Shown piece by piece: positions 19,589 to 42,033 of a DNA stretch of 42,767 nt. A program made the translations under genes and the position numbers. Location: positions 1-42,767 of IMG/VR virus record IMGVR_UViG_3300025410_000036, one strand, 5' to 3'. The notes under the pieces are model-generated. The model worked only from the letters and a program-made list of their open reading frames with translations, was not told where the DNA came from and made no database searches. How positions within the stretch are numbered: position 1 is the stretch's first letter; each line of letters starts with the position of its first letter. This DNA is from a virus.

Positions 19589-22500
19589 CTAAGCTATTCC
19601 ACCTGTAGGTGAAGAACCACCGTTAGGCCAAGCAGGATTATCATAAGCACCTGTAGCATTGCATGATGTATTAATTCGTTTATTGGCAATATTCTGTTGA
19701 TTCTCCGGACTTGCAAGAAAGGCATCTTTAATCGAAGCTAGTTCTGCTGTTTTACATGATGCAGAATTTAATTGGTTTTGCCAATAAGCAAGGCCACCTG
19801 GATCAGGAGTTCTGCCTAGAATAGTTCCATAGAAGTCTGTGATAGAACAAGTTGATGTAGTAATAAGACTTGTACCTGGTGTAGCAGTTGTTGTTGTGCT
19901 ACATCTACCCGGAGTTCCTACTACACTATATCCATTAACTCCATTTGTATTAATGTTAGGACCTTGAATTGTTGTAATAGTACCTGGAACAATACTTTGA
20001 AGAACACCATTATTATTCAGAGTATTTGTAGGAACAAGATTAACACCGCCGGCATGTCCTGATACACTTAACTCACCGTCACTCCAAGCAGCACAACCCA
20101 TAGCATTATGTAATTTTACATTACACCAATTATTAATTGTTGCCATCATTGACCAATATTCAATTCCTGCTAAATCTGGTGGACGATTTAGACCATTAAC
20201 ATAAATATTATATACATTACAAATCATTGCAGATGATGCAACACCTTTTGTGCTTGCACATGGATATCCACTGGTCTTAATTCCTTGATTAACAAGATTA
20301 TACAGCTGAGAACAGTTCATACCTGTAGCAGTTGCCTGACCACAAGCATTTTTCTTGACCTGAACTTGACCAGGACTTTGACCCAATATACCGGTCGCTT
20401 TGCATAACCAGTTTTGATTTGCTGAACACCATGTTAGAGTATTTAATCCTTGATTAATTGGTGTGCAATAATTAAGCACAAGTTTATTCACAGTAACCTG
20501 TGGCGGCGGACTCGGATATGGTCCTGGTGATGGATTTGGTGTTGGATAAGGAGTAGGACTTGGTGGCCTTGGTGGTGGCGGTGGATTAGGTATAGTAATA
20601 ATAGTAGGAGCAACAGTAGTGATATCATAGAACTGTTCGCTCTCCGGAACAGTAATAATTTGTCCTGTAAATTCAGCAAACAAATATGGAGCAATTGATA
20701 CTGATTTAGATGCTACGTTTTGTGAAATAGCAGGAACTGTGATATATGCTAGTGTTGCCCAGTTGTCACCAACCGAAACATGTTCTGTTTCCGCACTGTT
20801 AGCAGTAATATTCAAATAATTTTTATTATTAACAGGTAAAAGGGCTCCTCCACCAGGAACAAATGTTCCTGCAATATCTAAAGCACAATTAAAATCTGAT
20901 GATGTTGTGTCGGATAACAGAAAACTGGTAAAATCTTCTGCAAATATTCCGTATTTTGTTCTTTCTAATCCATTGGCATCTTTAATTGAAAGAGAGGTTG
21001 CACTTGCTTGTAATGCATTTAGTGAAACACTATATTCAATATTTTTCAACCTTTGATCAATTTTAGAAACATCTTCCATAGTATATCTTCTATGATCTAT
21101 AGTTTCAACAATGATTGAATTAATATCAGTAGTATAAGGTAATACACGAAGTTTATAAAGAAGCATAGACCTATGTGGCTGATTTGGGAAATTTGGTGTC
21201 TGATTAGGAGTTCCCATAGCCAAGGTAAGAGGATTATTCAATGTCATATAGACAAGATCATATCTTGGTAAATAATAAGAATAACTGGATAAAAAGTTAG
21301 TAACCGCAAGTGGTGTTCTTGCACTTGTAAACGACCAATTACTGTTGTTTGATGCATTTGGTCTGACAGGTCTAAAGTCAATAGTATCTGCAAGTTTTAT
21401 TCCCGAAACCTTAGGTATAATAGTATATCCGGTTCCTATAGAACTTCCTTTTTCATAAACAGTATTAGTTAGGTAAGGATAAGAGTCTATACTAAAATAA
21501 CCAACGTCAGAACCTGAAGAATAATAACGAAGGCAAATAATCAAATAACCAGTAGGATTTGCAAAACCAGGTTTTAATTGTAATGATGCATGATCATAAT
21601 ATTCAAGCTGCTGTCCTCTATCTAAAATGAAATGAGTTGTAATGTTGTTTAAACCACTTAAACTCATGCCAGCCGTAGGTGCAGTAGGTGATTGATATAC
21701 TGCTATAACTTGAGCAACATCAGAAACAAACAAACTTTCAGGTTGTGTTGGTGAAAAGTTTTGAATAACAACCTGAGAATCATTTAAATAAACAAAAGTG
21801 TTAGATCCTGTGGAATTATTAAACGTTGCAGTTGGTGCACTAGAAGAAAATACAGTTGTATTGGCAATATGTAATGTCTTAACACGAGGATGTACCGCAT
21901 CATTAGTTGCATTGACGACAGCATAAACTGTAGCTGTAAAACTTTCTGAATTAGCACCCGTATATAAGGTTACCTGTTCTGGTGTTGAAGTTGTAACAAC
22001 ACTTGTTACAGCAACCTGATCACCTACATTTCTAGAACTTGTTCCAGCATTTGTAACGATAACCATAAAGTTTTCCATTACATTCAAATCATAGGATTCG
22101 GTTGCTGTTGAACCTGCAAAGTTCTCACCATCCGATGCTGTAATAACTACGGATGATCCACCTGTAAAGTTTATGCTGTTATAAACTCTGCGATAAGTAT
22201 ATCCTACAGGTGTAATACCTGGGGCAACGTAAGATTGTGGATATGAGAAAAATGCCTTACGTAAAGAAGGTTCATTAACTATAGTAGTATAATATGCACT
22301 AGAGGTATTTTTATCAATAGGACTTACACTAGCAGAGGCATTATAAGTAGCATTTGCATACTTGGTATTTGAAACAAAAGAATTAACCGCGGACATATTA
22401 AATGATATAGAAAACTGGGTGCTTGTATTAGTATTTTGATATAAATTAGTATCAAGAGAAATAGTCTTATTGGTATAATCAGTAATAGTGGCTTGAGTAC

Positions 22501-24001
22501 CAGTTGATGGACCATTAAGAACTGTAAGTGTGGCACCTTGATATGCTTCTGAAATAGAACTTAGAGATGGACTATTAGCAATAATCTGTAAAGTATTTGT
22601 GCTTAATGCTGTGGCATTAGCAACAACTGTATTAAACTGATTATTAAAGAAATAGAACTCATACATTCTGTTAATTGTATTCGTATCAGGAGTTCCATAA
22701 AAGTTAATATCACGGATTCTTGCTGTACCAATTTTTGTAGAATTATATGTAGTTGTATTGGCATAATTTACTGCGTTTGCTACAACACAGTGTATGTCAA
22801 CAATACCCATACCTGCTGTATCAAAAGCGCCTTTAAGTTGATTTACAATAAGATAGTTACCATAATTAATATTTAAATTGTAGTTAGATATAGGAAAAGT
22901 TGTTCTTGCCGCTGGTATTTCAATTTGTGTTTCTGTTCGGTTACTAACCTTATAACCGTAAAGATATGCTTTACCAGCACTGAAGTTTAAGGTATAATTA
23001 TTGCCAGGATCTACAGTAGAATTGGTAATTGATAGCATGAATGGATTTACAATATAGTTACCGGCCTCATCATATGTTCTTCTTGCCATCTCATCTTCAA
23101 TTTGAGAATAAAGAGGTGTTGTAACTAGGTCTTTAATAACACCTCGTTCCACTCTTGCGATCTGAATAAACTTTTCTTTGTCAAAACTTCCTAGATTTCT
23201 TGTAGTTAGATTAAGGAATACCTGATAACGTGCAGCACCAGGTGCTTGGTAGTTTGAAGCCTCTAATGCAGGATCTAGCAACGATGTATCGGAGGTTTCT
23301 GTTACTACACTGTCTACATATTGTAAACCTACAAGAGCATTTGCTTTAGAATCAAATGATGATAGAACAATAGACTGTGATGGAACTTTAATAAAGAATC
23401 CATCCATAAAGTAAACACTATCATTGATAAACGCAATGGTTCCGTTAGAAGAAACATTTGATGTTGACACCAAATTAGCTCTAACATTACCAGGATAAGT
23501 CATAATGGTAGCACCAGGATCAAACTCTTTACCTGTTAAATACTTAATAGCAATTGCTGCTGGTGTATTGTTTGTTGATGGAATCGTCTGAACTACTCTC
23601 GCCATAACATCAGTGTTACCAGAACTTAGAATAATAGTCTGATTTTTAAATTGAGTTATGTCAACAATACTATTAGCATATGATGGATTGACATTGAGGT
23701 TAATGGTATTGGTAATGCTTAGTTTACCACCAAGTACCGACGAACCATTAACAAATATGTTGCGTCCAAATCTTTCAATTTGATTCTGTAAAATAGTTTG
23801 AATTTGAGTTAATTCTCTTGCCTGAACGGCGTAGCCAGGTCTAAAAAGGATTCTATGGAAATTCTTAGACTCAGTAAAATCATCATAATAAGGAGAAACG
23901 GTCGTTGCTGCTGGTACAACAAGAGTATTTGCTATACTAACATCAGCATTTGATGATGATGAATTTGCATAAGAAGTGTCTATAGGTGAACAAGTTGCCA
24001 T
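19589..24001 (-). CDS. DUF4815 virion protein with Pro-rich hinge and DUF4214-like C-terminus
   Basis: 1470 residues. Residues about 38-80 carry the DUF4815 signature YYDDFTESKNFHRILFRPGY / AVQARELTQIQTILQNQIE / RFGRNIF, known from large structural proteins of T4-like phages near the baseplate genes. The domain continues for several hundred residues (DRGQQLEYYDHASLQLKPG). A proline hinge follows at about 1138-1168 (PNPPPPPRPPSPTPYPTPNP). The last 300 residues are Cys-containing and hold two motifs of the DUF4214 type: VYNIYVNGLNRPPDLAGIEY near 1262 and FYGTILGRTPDPGGLAYW near 1390. DUF4214 occurs in secreted and surface proteins of bacteria. Preceded by a TATAAATA box 76 nt upstream, inside gp8. 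Likely a tail-periphery protein exposing a surface-binding tip. Confidence 0.75.
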   Translation of the reverse strand: MATCSPIDTSYANSSSSNADVSIANTLVVPAATTVSPYYDDFTESKNFHRILFRPGYAVQARELTQIQTILQNQIERFGRNIFVNGSSVLGGKLSITNTINLNVNPSYANSIVDITQFKNQTIILSSGNTDVMARVVQTIPSTNNTPAAIAIKYLTGKEFDPGATIMTYPGNVRANLVSTSNVSSNGTIAFINDSVYFMDGFFIKVPSQSIVLSSFDSKANALVGLQYVDSVVTETSDTSLLDPALEASNYQAPGAARYQVFLNLTTRNLGSFDKEKFIQIARVERGVIKDLVTTPLYSQIEDEMARRTYDEAGNYIVNPFMLSITNSTVDPGNNYTLNFSAGKAYLYGYKVSNRTETQIEIPAARTTFPISNYNLNINYGNYLIVNQLKGAFDTAGMGIVDIHCVVANAVNYANTTTYNSTKIGTARIRDINFYGTPDTNTINRMYEFYFFNNQFNTVVANATALSTNTLQIIANSPSLSSISEAYQGATLTVLNGPSTGTQATITDYTNKTISLDTNLYQNTNTSTQFSISFNMSAVNSFVSNTKYANATYNASASVSPIDKNTSSAYYTTIVNEPSLRKAFFSYPQSYVAPGITPVGYTYRRVYNSINFTGGSSVVITASDGENFAGSTATESYDLNVMENFMVIVTNAGTSSRNVGDQVAVTSVVTTSTPEQVTLYTGANSESFTATVYAVVNATNDAVHPRVKTLHIANTTVFSSSAPTATFNNSTGSNTFVYLNDSQVVIQNFSPTQPESLFVSDVAQVIAVYQSPTAPTAGMSLSGLNNITTHFILDRGQQLEYYDHASLQLKPGFANPTGYLIICLRYYSSGSDVGYFSIDSYPYLTNTVYEKGSSIGTGYTIIPKVSGIKLADTIDFRPVRPNASNNSNWSFTSARTPLAVTNFLSSYSYYLPRYDLVYMTLNNPLTLAMGTPNQTPNFPNQPHRSMLLYKLRVLPYTTDINSIIVETIDHRRYTMEDVSKIDQRLKNIEYSVSLNALQASATSLSIKDANGLERTKYGIFAEDFTSFLLSDTTSSDFNCALDIAGTFVPGGGALLPVNNKNYLNITANSAETEHVSVGDNWATLAYITVPAISQNVASKSVSIAPYLFAEFTGQIITVPESEQFYDITTVAPTIITIPNPPPPPRPPSPTPYPTPNPSPGPYPSPPPQVTVNKLVLNYCTPINQGLNTLTWCSANQNWLCKATGILGQSPGQVQVKKNACGQATATGMNCSQLYNLVNQGIKTSGYPCASTKGVASSAMICNVYNIYVNGLNRPPDLAGIEYWSMMATINNWCNVKLHNAMGCAAWSDGELSVSGHAGGVNLVPTNTLNNNGVLQSIVPGTITTIQGPNINTNGVNGYSVVGTPGRCSTTTTATPGTSLITTSTCSITDFYGTILGRTPDPGGLAYWQNQLNSASCKTAELASIKDAFLASPENQQNIANKRINTSCNATGAYDNPAWPNGGSSPTGGIA

Positions 24002-37428: not shown

Positions 37429-38049
37429 ATGGGAACTTATCAACCAACTAATATTCCTATTAACTTAAACCTAAATGATCTTAAAAGTGCCGCAGACAAT
37501 GCAGGTCAGTATGCCAAGAGTTGCCGTTTTGTGGTTAGAATTGGTGCATCATCATTAACCGGTGGTTCTAGTATTCTTAAAATAATGAATACTACAAAAG
37601 ACTTTATCTATATGTGTGAAGCAGTAGAGTTTCCTGGTCGTGGTTTTGATGTTACGCAAATAAGATACAATGGACCTTCACAAGTATTTCCAAACAATAC
37701 AATGTATAACCAAGCTAGTTTATCTTTTATTTGTAGAACATATAGTCCAGAACGTGCGTTCTTTGATGATTGGATGGATATTATTAATCCTACATCCAGT
37801 TGGAACTTTGAATATGCGGATAACTATTATTCAACTATACAAATATACCAATTAGCAGAGTTCGGTCAAGGACTAGGAACTCAACAAAATGCTCAAATAA
37901 CACCAGTAGCAACATACGGTTGGACTTTAAATAAGGCCTGGCCTACATTGGTGAATCCACAACAGGTCACATGGGCGGACCAAGATATATTAAGATTACA
38001 GGTTACATTTGCTTACAAGTATTGGGATAGACCAGATTATAAACAATAA
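37429..38049 (+). CDS. Tail tube-fold protein (gp54/gp19-like)
   Basis: 206 residues. CRFVVRIGASSLTGGSS, FIYMCEAVEFPGRGFDVTQI, RYNGPSQVFPNNTMYNQASL, FICRTYSPERAFFDDWMDII, and C-terminal GWTLNKAWPTLVNPQQVTWA ... LQVTFAYKYWD. The (C-E-A)-x-FPG start, the W...I and the terminal L.VTF.Y.YW are the tube-protein pattern of T4 gp19 and the related initiator gp54. Its place directly after the gp48-like gene (2 nt gap) and before gp26 favours the tube initiator gp54 over the main tube protein. It would form the first ring on the baseplate. Confidence 0.65.
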   Translation: MGTYQPTNIPINLNLNDLKSAADNAGQYAKSCRFVVRIGASSLTGGSSILKIMNTTKDFIYMCEAVEFPGRGFDVTQIRYNGPSQVFPNNTMYNQASLSFICRTYSPERAFFDDWMDIINPTSSWNFEYADNYYSTIQIYQLAEFGQGLGTQQNAQITPVATYGWTLNKAWPTLVNPQQVTWADQDILRLQVTFAYKYWDRPDYKQ

Positions 38050-38063
38050 TGGAGAAATAGATT

Positions 38064-38786
38064 ATGTTACCAATCATTGATATGCCAACTTATGAAATTG
38101 AAATACCCTCTAGTAAGGAAAAAATTACTGTTAGACCGTTTAATGTGAAAGAAGAAAAACTCCTTCTAATGGCTATGGAGTCTAAAGATGTAAATGAAAT
38201 TATTAAAACAGTTAAACAGATTATAAGCAACTGTATCATTAAAGGTACAGTTAATATTGATAAACTACCATTTTTTGATGTTGATTACCTGTTTATCTTT
38301 TTAAGGGCCAAGTCAATAGGTGAAACCATAGAGGTTAATCTAACTTGTAATAATATACTTGAAAGTGGTGATAAATGTGGTAATGTGTTTCCAACATCTA
38401 TGAATATTAGTAATTGTGAAATTGTTTATCCTGATGAAATTAGTAATGATATTAAGTTGAATGAAAAACAAGGTGTAAAGATGAGATATCCATCTTATGC
38501 AGCTATTAAAAGAATAGAGTTTGGTGATGAAATAGATGTTAAGACTAATACTATAGCCGGATCTATAGATCACATTTACGATGCCAAGGGTGTTTATTCA
38601 TATAAGGATTATTCCAAAGAGGAATTAAAAGAGTTTGTGGAAGGTTTGACAGAAGAGAATTATAAAAAGATGATGGGGTTTATTGATAACTTTCCAACAT
38701 TTGTAGTAAAAATGGAAGCAACATGCAATAAATGCGGTTTTCAGCATAAAGTGAGGTATTCAGATTTTTATGATTTTTTTATATAA
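38064..38786 (+). CDS. 26: Baseplate hub assembly protein gp26 (T4_baseplate family)
   Basis: 240 residues; T4 gp26 is 208. LPIIDMPTYEIEIPSSKEKI, TVRPFNVKEEKLLLMAMESK, IVKQIISNCI-type segment and LPFFDVDYLFIFLRAKSIGE are the strongly conserved family core. Four cysteines (C95, C105, C221, C224: LTCNN...DKCG and TCNKCG) suggest a zinc ribbon. The gene ends SDFYDFFI. The two Phe codons before the stop lie in T TTT TTT (38774-38780), a perfect -1 slippery heptamer in phase. A -1 shift there enters the 71-codon frame at 38789, giving a predicted 313-residue fusion (see findings). In T4, gp26 acts in hub assembly as a chaperone-type protein. Followed by the gene for the possible tape-measure or cell-wall enzyme. 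Confidence 0.85.
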   Translation: MLPIIDMPTYEIEIPSSKEKITVRPFNVKEEKLLLMAMESKDVNEIIKTVKQIISNCIIKGTVNIDKLPFFDVDYLFIFLRAKSIGETIEVNLTCNNILESGDKCGNVFPTSMNISNCEIVYPDEISNDIKLNEKQGVKMRYPSYAAIKRIEFGDEIDVKTNTIAGSIDHIYDAKGVYSYKDYSKEELKEFVEGLTEENYKKMMGFIDNFPTFVVKMEATCNKCGFQHKVRYSDFYDFFI

Positions 38787-38818
38787 TAATGGGACACGAT
38801 AATCTCGGAAACCATTAT
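38774..38818 (+). promoter_or_regulatory. Candidate programmed -1 ribosomal frameshift signal
   Basis: T TTT TTT at 38774-38780 lies in phase with gp26 codons (GAT TTT TTT ATA TAA). After 5 nt, ATAATGG at 38786-38792 is complementary over 7 bp to CCATTAT at 38812-38818, which would form a weak stem-loop. The stem contains the ATG (38789-38791) of the next frame, which is in the -1 phase and has no Shine-Dalgarno sequence. All elements are read directly; frameshifting itself is inferred. Confidence 0.6.
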
Positions 38819-39004
38819 AGAACACAGTTTGGTATGATACAGCATCATAAGTGGAGTCTGACAGAACTAGAAGCAATGATGCCATGGGAAAGATATATCT
38901 ATGTTGACCTGTTACAGTTGTTTCTTCAAGAAGAGGAACAGAAGGCCAAAGACCGTGAAAATGAGTTAAGAAATAAAATAAATCACGCTAATCGGAAAAG
39001 ATAA
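38789..39004 (+). CDS. 71-codon protein after gp26, gp51-like, probably also a frameshift extension
   Basis: 71 residues: MGHDNLGNHYRTQFGMIQHH, KWSLTELEAMMPWERYIYVD, LLQLFLQEEEQKAKDRENEL, with a basic end. The W.L.ELE.M.PWER..Y...L...L.EEE pattern is a small conserved protein after gp26 in aquatic T4-like phages; I recall the label gp51 (hub assembly), which I cannot confirm since T4 gp51 is much longer. No ribosome binding site precedes the ATG (the upstream is T/A-rich), so translation is by coupling to the gp26 stop 2 nt upstream or by a -1 frameshift. Its stop overlaps the next ATG (TAATG). The length and charge resemble the T part of lambda gpGT. Confidence 0.6.
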   Translation: MGHDNLGNHYRTQFGMIQHHKWSLTELEAMMPWERYIYVDLLQLFLQEEEQKAKDRENELRNKINHANRKR

Positions 39005-42000
39005 TGGCCAATAAGGTTAATAACGATACATTTAAACGATTAAAGAAATTAACTCCTGCAAGAAGAATACAGATTGCCGATAGTCCTGTCGGTCAGTCTA
39101 TGCTAGGTCTACTTACACCATCACAATTGGCTGATGCATTTCCAAAGTATTGGGAAAAAGCATTACCAGATGTTGGTGGTTTTCAGGCAGCCATATCTAA
39201 AAAATCTCAATCACAACAACAAGGTATTTTGGATTCTATCACCAGTCAGATAAGTGAACTGAAAGAAAGTGTCGGTGAAAAATATCAAAAAGTAAAATCA
39301 ACAATTAAAAGAAAAGGTGCAGAATTAAAAGAAGACGTTTCTGAGATTTTAACCGGTGGATCAAAAGTTCCTGTTCTCAATAAAGATGCTGATGTTGCAT
39401 GGAATGATATACAAAAAGGACCTATTGATGTAAATTCTCCAGGTGGTAAGATATTCTCTCGCCTTTCGGATAAAAAATTATCAGAATTGGGAATTACAAA
39501 AAGCCAAGATAAAGATGGTAAGACCACATATAATTATAATGCTCCTACGGCTGGTAAAGAAGAAATTGAAAGTAGAATTAAGGGAGATTATAAAAAAGGT
39601 ACAGAAGGCCTTGCTGGTAAAAAGGCACTTCAGAAGATGGTTTATGATGGTTATAAAAATGCTGGATTCTCCGATTCACAAGCAAGAGCATTGACTGCTG
39701 AAGTTGGTCGTGAAAACGGCTATAATGCTGCTACTCTTTTTGGAACTCATATTGACCCATACAATAAAGAAGTAAACCTCGGTATGATTAGTATGCAGGG
39801 TAGTAGAGGGAAAGGATTATACAATTATCTTCAGAGTAAAGATTTGATTGATAAAAATGGAAATATGAAGATAAGCCAAGAGACTGTAAATGCTATGGCT
39901 GCATATCAAAGAAAAGAAATGCAGGAAGGCACGCATGGTGGAAGTCCCGAACAAATTAAAAGAGTTAGAGAATTTCTAAACAATCCTAATATTGATAAAG
40001 ATTCAGCAGCAGAAATTCTTGGTAAAGATTATATTAGATGGAGATATAATGATCCTCGATATGCCAGTGGACATAGAAACCGTGATGATGCATACGCTCA
40101 ATTAGATCAAACATTAGGTCAAATGAAACAGTCTGGTGGAGGTGATGTAAACAAACTTTCAAAAGAAGAATATGAATCTCTTTCACAAAAAATAATTTCA
40201 GAAAAGAGCGAACAAAGAAAAGCAGACTATGCTCGAGCTATGTTCCAGTATGAAAAAGATAATGGATTACAACATAGCGAAGAAACAGCAAGTGTAGCAA
40301 CCAAACCTGCTACTGGAGGATACCAGATAGGACCAACCGGACATATTCAGCCTACAGATCCAACATTATATGATTCTAAAAATTCACAACAATGTGCCAC
40401 ATTGAGTAAAGCATTTAATAAAGATATTGGTCGTGCGTCAGGTTGGAAAGTAGAAAGAAACGATGCTGCAATTAAACCTGGAGTTGTGGTTGCAACTTCA
40501 ATGTATAACCAAGGTTCTGGTAAAGAAGGATCGGGTTATCATACTGGTGTAGCATTAACAAAACCGGATAAAGATGGCAATTTTTATATGTTGGATCAGT
40601 TTAATCCAAATGCCAATTCATCAGGAAAGCCTGCTATCAGACAGTATAATATCAATGGTTATAAACAAAACGGAAATTATTTTGGTATTATTAATGGTAG
40701 AACTGAAAGTTCTCTAGACGCATTAAAGTATGTTAAAAGCATTGCAGGTAAAGATCATCCGGCATTGCAACAAATAGACGAACAAATATCGGCATTAGAA
40801 AATGCTAAAAACGGAAGTCAAATTGCCAAGACAGATGCAACAGAGGTCAAAAATGTAACAGGTGACACTCCTATTACACCATCACCAAAGGAGCAAACGG
40901 CTGATGTCAATGGTCCTCGTCCAGCGCAACCTAAAACTGAAGTAAAACCAACGGCAGAGGTTGAAAAGAAATCATTACCGAACAAATATAAGGTTGATAG
41001 AGCTGGATTTATTGATGCCATTAAACAAACACCGGATTTCAAAAATAATCCTTTATCATTTATGGCAAGTGAAGATATGATTATAGATGGATTTAATAAA
41101 GATTCACAGGTTGTTGCTGCTGGTGTTAAATATGATGCAGCTAAAGGTGTAATGACTTTTAAAGATCCTTCTCATCCTGGCGTTCAGCAAGTTATGAAAG
41201 ATTTACACACCGATAAATTTATGACTCCTATACAGGAACCCAAACCAAAACCTCCTGTAGTGACTCCTCCTGCGCCAATCGTCACAGCGGCGCCTACCTC
41301 AACAACACCTACACCTAATGCACCGGCACCTACACCAGAGGCTAAGGCACCAACACCTACACCAACATCCGCAGAACCTCCAACAATCAAAAGATTTGAA
41401 AAAGGTGATGGTTGGGCTTCTGTAAAAGAAGTTCCTAATCCTGCGTATAAACCTCCGGCACCTACACAGGCGACACCAGAACCACCTAAACCAACACCGA
41501 CTCCACCTCCACCTGCACAGGCACCTACAACAACACCGGCGCAAACAAAGACAACTGTGCCTCCTGTACCAGGTGCATCCGACGGCGGTTCATTTGATGT
41601 TAGAAATGCGGGTGATGTTAATTTCTATCCAATGGATAAGAAAGATAATGTGGCAGCCGTTGATACTAAAACACAGAAACCTTTATTCACCGCAAAGAGT
41701 GGTGAAAAGATTGATGTTACACCATCACAAAAGGTTCAAGGTAACAATGTTGGTCCAACAGGAAATAATGTAAAAACGGAATTTGATGCTCTTAGTCAGC
41801 AAATAGGTACCGCATTTAATAGTGCTGGCAAACCTCAACAACCTTCAATGACTATGCAACAACGTCCTTCTGAAAGAGTTGATGATCCAAACTTTGGATA
41901 TAATCTACAGAAACAAAATCTTTCCAAGCCATATCATAATGCTGCCTTTGAACGTGCTATGATGAGAACAAGGTTGCAGGAAACTGGTGATACTTTAAAC

Positions 42001-42033
42001 GGCCACTTCTCTAATGGTAATACAAACTATTAA
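39004..42033 (+). CDS. Tail-associated cell-wall lytic protein (lysozyme-like and Cys/His peptidase modules)
   Basis: 1009 residues. The N-terminal 60 residues (LKKLTPARRIQIADSPVGQS, LTPSQLADAFPKYW) are a family N-terminus I recognise from aquatic T4-like phages. A coiled segment follows (75-118). Residues about 205-375 look like a phage tail lysozyme: DGYKNAGFSDSQARALTAEV, GRENGYN (possible catalytic Glu237), LGMISMQGSRGKG, IRWRYNDPRYASGHRNRDDA. Residues about 460-565 look like a Cys/His peptidase/amidase (NlpC/CHAP-like): SQQCATLSKAFNKDIGRASG with Cys464, GYHTGVALT with His513, FYMLDQFNP. Residues about 730-890 are a Pro/Thr/Ala-rich linker. No signal peptide. Position after gp26 is where a tape measure or hub would lie, so it may be carried within the tail and injected. 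Confidence 0.7.
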   Translation: MANKVNNDTFKRLKKLTPARRIQIADSPVGQSMLGLLTPSQLADAFPKYWEKALPDVGGFQAAISKKSQSQQQGILDSITSQISELKESVGEKYQKVKSTIKRKGAELKEDVSEILTGGSKVPVLNKDADVAWNDIQKGPIDVNSPGGKIFSRLSDKKLSELGITKSQDKDGKTTYNYNAPTAGKEEIESRIKGDYKKGTEGLAGKKALQKMVYDGYKNAGFSDSQARALTAEVGRENGYNAATLFGTHIDPYNKEVNLGMISMQGSRGKGLYNYLQSKDLIDKNGNMKISQETVNAMAAYQRKEMQEGTHGGSPEQIKRVREFLNNPNIDKDSAAEILGKDYIRWRYNDPRYASGHRNRDDAYAQLDQTLGQMKQSGGGDVNKLSKEEYESLSQKIISEKSEQRKADYARAMFQYEKDNGLQHSEETASVATKPATGGYQIGPTGHIQPTDPTLYDSKNSQQCATLSKAFNKDIGRASGWKVERNDAAIKPGVVVATSMYNQGSGKEGSGYHTGVALTKPDKDGNFYMLDQFNPNANSSGKPAIRQYNINGYKQNGNYFGIINGRTESSLDALKYVKSIAGKDHPALQQIDEQISALENAKNGSQIAKTDATEVKNVTGDTPITPSPKEQTADVNGPRPAQPKTEVKPTAEVEKKSLPNKYKVDRAGFIDAIKQTPDFKNNPLSFMASEDMIIDGFNKDSQVVAAGVKYDAAKGVMTFKDPSHPGVQQVMKDLHTDKFMTPIQEPKPKPPVVTPPAPIVTAAPTSTTPTPNAPAPTPEAKAPTPTPTSAEPPTIKRFEKGDGWASVKEVPNPAYKPPAPTQATPEPPKPTPTPPPPAQAPTTTPAQTKTTVPPVPGASDGGSFDVRNAGDVNFYPMDKKDNVAAVDTKTQKPLFTAKSGEKIDVTPSQKVQGNNVGPTGNNVKTEFDALSQQIGTAFNSAGKPQQPSMTMQQRPSERVDDPNFGYNLQKQNLSKPYHNAAFERAMMRTRLQETGDTLNGHFSNGNTNY

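Follow-up and report, generated by a model that had tools for sequence, protein, structure and literature searches.

A predicted programmed −1 frameshift joins gp26 to the gp51 frame in a T4-type virus, with a slip site conserved among its relatives

The lambda proteins gpG and gpGT, and likewise E and E+E' of P2, have been described as the short and the long form of a tail assembly chaperone (TAC), with T4 listed as the exception to the G-T shift (PMC5009743). T4 gp51 was reported to be essential but of unknown function (PMC3004832), and the gp51 of cyanophages to be without the first ~200 residues (PMC3037559). Vladimirov, Gautam & Davidson (Virology 2022, 566:9-15) are reported to have identified genes 26 and 51 of T4-like phages as tail assembly chaperones. 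In the passages that cite this work, PMC10885494 (PRFect) states that some T4-like phages carry one short and one fused gene, and PMC12846349 credits it with poly-T −1 signals in T4-like TAC-N genes. Here we describe the corresponding locus of a T4-type virus from an environmental sample, the IMG/VR record IMGVR_UViG_3300025410_000036, the whole of which (42.8 kb; 42,767 nucleotides) is referred to as the window. From its sequence and that of its relatives, a programmed −1 frameshift very probably joins gp26 to the 71-codon gp51 frame that follows it (ORF2, the second open reading frame), which would make gene 26 a tail assembly chaperone gene with a short and a long form.

The window shares with the T4-like chaperones the same two protein families and the −1 poly-T signals, as far as the papers citing Vladimirov et al. 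2022 describe them, but it has the frameshift state and not the two-gene state of T4. A conserved poly-T −1 signal, an uninterrupted −1 frame and a misannotated second ORF are also found in the chaperone frameshift of Vandenendeviridae and Andersonviridae (PMC12846349), where the motif is GTTTTT instead of the T TTT TTN of the window family. The likeness to the lambda and P2 pairs lies in the roles of the two chaperone forms, whereas no recognised tape measure gene stands beside the pair in the window; a likeness in sequence would not be expected. The lambda heptamer is G GGA AAG. The 2022 study on T4-like phages is said to report in its abstract that the frameshift is kept in several T4-like groups and that 26 and 51 are separate in T4, a lead that agrees with the papers citing it.

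The 3′ end of gp26 reads GAT TTT TTT ATA TAA and thus contains a slippery heptamer of the X XXY YYZ type in the gp26 phase (Table 1). ORF2 lies in the −1 phase relative to gp26 with no stop in between, and a shift at the heptamer would give a fusion of 313 residues, 237 from gp26 and 76 from the −1 frame, with the joint FF-YII-MGHD. The heptamer, its phase and the length of the fusion were correctly given in an earlier reading of the window, hereafter the original prediction. Runs of seven T are no rarity in the window, which has 10 of them where 31 would be expected, and in-phase heptamers occur 48 times in its 12,814 codons. Only the one at the gp26 end opens a −1 frame that extends beyond its gene (76 codons, against 2-31 for the other heptamers). 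No Shine-Dalgarno (SD) sequence was found ahead of ATG 38789 (TATGATTTTTTTATATAATA), as had been claimed, while most other genes of the window have one by a simple motif check.

Table 1. Features of the gene 26 locus (positions are those of the whole window)
Feature	Position	Strand	Evidence or remark
Tail tube protein (gp19-like), upstream neighbour of gene 26	37429..38049	+	phrog_45 tail tube E 4.7e-26; Pfam Phage_T4_gp19 E 0.0034, below cut-off
Gene 26 zero-frame product, 240 aa: putative short tail assembly chaperone (TAC-N, gpG-like)	38064..38786	+	PF12322 T4_baseplate E 6.7e-57; phrog_150
GTGAGGTAT, SD-like, GAGG 17 nt upstream of slip site	38751..38759	+	Codon-invariant in window clade; role uncertain
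Slippery heptamer T TTT TTT, X XXY YYZ in gp26 phase	38774..38780	+	T TTT TTN kept in 260/263 loci
Predicted −1 frame extension after shift: YII + 71-codon gp51 domain + stop, putative C-terminal domain of TAC-NC	38781..39004	+	phrog_634; −1 frame open in 139/139 complete relatives
Predicted hairpin, starting 5 nt past heptamer, covering ATG 38789	38786..38818 (arms 38786-38792, 38812-38818)	+	Fold z −2.3
ORF2, 71 codons, ATG 38789 to TAA	38789..39004	+	phrog_634 E 5.1e-24 (38789-39001); elsewhere annotated gp51 'baseplate hub assembly catalyst'
1009-aa tail-associated protein, overlapping gp51 stop as TAATG	39004..42033	+	phrog_6922 E 8e-26; weak Phage_lysozyme2

To survey the family, 263 loci with a complete gp26, which collapse to 145 clusters at 90% identity, were searched for the heptamer in phase within the last 15 codons. 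T TTT TTN was found near the gp26 end in all but three of the loci and in 142 of the 145 clusters (TTTTTTC in 120, TTTTTTT in 21 and TTTTTTG in 1), and the −1 frame was open over 59–77 codons in every one of the 139 complete clusters. An SD sequence preceded the second-frame ATG, where such an ATG exists, in 4 of 82 cases, compared to 73 of 140 gp26 starts. Of the three clusters without T TTT TTN, two are Ackermann-type phages and the third is an Acinetobacter phage that has separate genes. All 13 close relatives of the window keep GAT TTT TTT and the −1 phase, and T TTT TTN is also present at the joint in phages of Rhizobium, Ochrobactrum, Stenotrophomonas (Menderavirus), Vibrio (Schizotequatrovirus) and Aeromonas (Angelvirus). 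In the Mosig group (L018 3193-3226; 15 clusters in all) gp26 extends ~8 codons beyond the heptamer and the frames overlap, which is a second arrangement of the same slip signal.

The codons of the slip site are fixed as well. The base preceding the Phe pair is T and the first Phe codon is TTT in 142 of 142 clusters (background for TTT 0.80), while the second Phe codon is TTC in 120 of the 142, compared to 0.20 of the Phe codons in the gene. Within the window clade, D237, F238 and F239 always have the same codons, whereas the codons of D234, F235 and Y236 vary silently.

T4 itself serves as a natural control. In T4 gp51 (249 aa) PF12322 extends across residues 1–201 (E 3.9e-52) and is followed by the gp51 domain. 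When compared to the predicted fusion, T4 gp51 aligned from column 20 to column 285, straight across the joint (hhalign P 97.9, E 4.7e-13), whereas T4 gp26 aligned with the first part only and ended at the joint (hhalign P 98.8). The second ORF matched the C-terminus of T4 gp51 (hhalign P 89, E 2e-6). Genes 26 and 51 of T4 are separate and divergent, an arrangement that is also found in Acinetobacter phage Kimel. T4 gp51 is a contiguous protein whose homology to the predicted fusion extends along nearly all of its length, and it has its own gene, which is divergent from gene 26 and needs no slip. T4 therefore has separate genes for the two products that slipping would yield in its relatives. 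By homology to T4 gp26 the first ORF falls into the TAC-N family, and the second falls into TAC-C by phrog_634 and by the C-terminus of T4 gp51; a conserved zero-frame X XXY YYZ site and an open and conserved −1 frame are among the characteristics of programmed −1 frameshifts. The proposed shift is upheld by the near-universal heptamer and phase, the often missing second-frame starts and the contiguous fusion encoded by T4, and the same evidence argues for the suggested equivalence of T4-type gp26 with gpG and of gp26-gp51 with gpGT.

An SD-like stimulator upstream and a stem-loop downstream (5-9 nt) are common, though not obligatory, features of frameshift sites. Pairing of −4 kcal/mol or better, located 4–19 nt before the heptamer, was present in 128 of 142 clusters, compared to 23% of random gp26 windows. 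In the cyanophage and Pelagibacter groups the SD-like element reads TTG GAG GGN and ends 6–8 nt upstream of the heptamer. Its codon choice shows selection at the RNA level, Glu being encoded by GAG in 81 of 93 cases (expected 0.30; p about 1e-30, indicative only) and Leu by TTG in 57 of 117 (expected 0.21). In the window clade GTG AGG TAT (38751-38759) is invariant in all members, and only about a quarter of the conserved codons are codon-invariant there.

Downstream of the heptamer, the 40-nt segment that directly follows it averages −8.7 kcal/mol across the family, compared to about −3 in most flanking segments, and the fold z averages −2.3 against about 0 in control regions. The register of the hairpins varies from group to group, and they show little covariation; in the P-SSM2-type hairpin 92% of the cells are paired, compared to 22–46% when it is slid, with just one two-sided change. 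In the window the predicted fold of 70 nt (−12.3 kcal/mol, z −2.3) has the arms ATAATGG and CCATTAT base-paired, and 87.5% of the cells are paired in 8 clade sequences. RNAalifold picked another weak fold.

The gp51 domain could also be produced without a shift. In translational coupling, ribosomes that have terminated at TAA 38784 would start again at ATG 38789, giving a free 71-aa gp51. An ATG is indeed present there in 79 of 139 clusters, and public records annotate two separate proteins. The −1 phase is usual for such overlaps, and we did not take it by itself as evidence, because coupled genes that overlap as TAATG or ATGA share this phase anyway. However, in 59 of the 139 clusters the −1 frame has none of the start codons ATG, GTG and TTG ahead of the conserved gp51 block. 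In these clusters the domain is already conserved before any ATG is reached, and only a shift explains its presence there. Furthermore, the Met column of the −1 frame exchanges with Leu and Ile in relatives, and in the isolates HTVC008M, DSL-LC02 and Mosig the annotated gp51 begins within the conserved block. The scarcity of SD sequences at second-frame starts also speaks against coupling, which in addition leaves the fixed slip codons and the contiguous T4 fusion unexplained. We consider coupling an unlikely source of the gp51 domain, and reinitiation may coexist with frameshifting as a route to it. Slippage during transcription of the T run, with the fusion being translated from slipped mRNA and no ribosomal frameshifting, would agree with the seven T of the window, but the 120 clusters with TTTTTTC have just six T, contrary to the background codon preference. 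A run of six T is too short for efficient polymerase slippage. The phase-locked X XXY YYZ site, the SD-like element and the hairpin suit ribosomal slippage, and we rejected the transcriptional explanation as very improbable. That the heptamer arose by chance where an AT-rich gene ends, without any recoding, might be suspected from the ten runs of seven T in the window; this is excluded at the family level because the heptamer is conserved in relatives, along with the synonymous constraint and the open −1 frame, and retains practically no probability.

Several observations weigh against the frameshift. The sequences surveyed are related and were counted as independent, so that binomial probabilities overstate the significance. 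ATG 38789 follows the stop by 2 nt (2-3 nt in the clade) and could serve reinitiation. The window clade is without an SD-like element at the usual spacing (about 6-14 nt), its GAGG being located at 17 nt. The stem after the heptamer, part of the original prediction, is predicted in the window, but it is conserved just in part in the window clade, and its covariation in the 8 clade sequences is no higher than in shuffles. The gene adjoining ORF2, encoding the 1009-aa protein, shows no recognisable tape-measure homology. Finally, in the fold comparison the highest-probability matches of the AlphaFold2 model of gp26 in the PDB, the HK97 tail assembly chaperone 2OB9 (HK97 gp13; 0.77) and the related YqbN-type chaperone 3FGX (0.63), are weak, with E 0.84-1.9 and just 52–62 aligned columns. 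A resemblance of the gp26 fold to HK97-type tail assembly chaperones is suggestive only. The model, built from an alignment of the window and IMG/VR loci only, is confident, with a pLDDT (predicted local distance difference test) of 88.6; its best matches among predicted viral structures were other gp26-type baseplate hub proteins, and a sequence search of the PDB with the gp26 profile found no relative.

With a programmed −1 frameshift, most ribosomes would terminate at TAA 38784 and yield the 240-aa short form (TAC-N), while a minority would shift by one base into the −1 frame at T TTT TTT and go on to the 313-aa long form (TAC-NC), which has the gp51 domain at its end. If the two forms act like lambda gpG/gpGT (PMC5009743), the short one may coat or bind the tape measure protein, and the long one may recruit the tail tube protein through its gp51 domain. 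We infer that the shift occurs in this virus, as well as its rate and the chaperone function of the products. A frameshift in the gp26 family is not new in kind: the original prediction knew of none, whereas the papers citing Vladimirov et al. 2022 indicate that one had already been described there. The locus in the window is a well-supported further member.

The stimulator anatomy may be new, as may the slip site of Ackermannviruses. Ackermannviridae and a related Vibrio phage also carry a homologous gp51-like domain in the −1 frame (hhalign P 93). It is preceded by N NTT TTC, with G ATT TTC, G GTT TTC or A ATT TTC replacing T TTT TTN (L022 3241-3402; L269-L283, L288, L289). Kuttervirus-type and Serratia members have no start codon before the −1 domain. 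The slip site of the Serratia phage is G GTT TTC, which we take to be the T7 gene 10 site. We tentatively propose, with somewhat less than even confidence, that T4-like phages make the gp26/gp51 shift with a full three-part cassette (SD-like element, U UUU UUC and hairpin) under RNA selection across cyanophages and Pelagibacter phages, that in the window clade the upstream element has been relaxed or moved to another spacing and U UUU UUU has replaced U UUU UUC, that Ackermannviridae use a T7 gene 10-like N NUU UUC at the joint, and that this anatomy is undescribed. The −1 cassette of E. coli dnaX consists of an SD-like element, an A-rich heptamer and a hairpin. The same layout is found in the cyanophage and Pelagibacter phage relatives, whereas the A-rich heptamer of dnaX and the missing SD-like element at the usual spacing set the window clade apart.

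These results bear on an earlier puzzle, that of T4 gp51 (PMC3004832) and the truncated gp51 of cyanophages (PMC3037559): the missing part would be gp26, supplied by the frameshift. The gp51 domain was matched in 616 public phage records. In all examined frameshift-type records the chaperone is split in two, the second protein is started late or it is omitted. For example, KC465899.1, OR032571.1, OX359470.1 and MT586120.1 have a gp51 domain that begins, as annotated, at a late internal ATG or has no annotation, since annotation demands a start codon. T4 has the joint as a fusion whereas other phages would make it by a shift, and so these phages offer a natural experiment on why the ratio of short to long form is important.

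The nearest relatives of the window are other IMG/VR contigs (69–81% identity), and the best isolate matches are cyanophages and Pelagibacter phages (34–37%). Upstream of gene 26 a tube cap gene precedes the tail tube gene. The original prediction noted a 1009-codon tail gene downstream, where lambda has its tail-length or tape-measure gene; this tail-associated gene does follow, but its identity as a tape measure is not demonstrable, and no tape measure gene was recognised within the window. The 1009-aa protein (39004-42033) has lysozyme-like and Pro-rich parts and is located where a tape measure is expected. A blastp comparison of this protein to the neighbours of relatives gave no clear match, and a match to T4 gp29 (E 0.004) was rejected, as composition was left uncorrected in that comparison and the match seems to reflect low complexity. 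Residues 175-205 of gp26 (window 38586-38678) gave a weak, above-cut-off Pfam match to Phage_XkdX (E 4e-05), which may be a shared motif, XkdX being a small protein encoded in the tail operons of Bacillus phages. On the minus strand (19589-24001) the window encodes a 1470-aa protein that contains DUF4815 (E 1.8e-62) and, at its C-terminus, DUF4214, and that probably serves as a large tail or fibre component.
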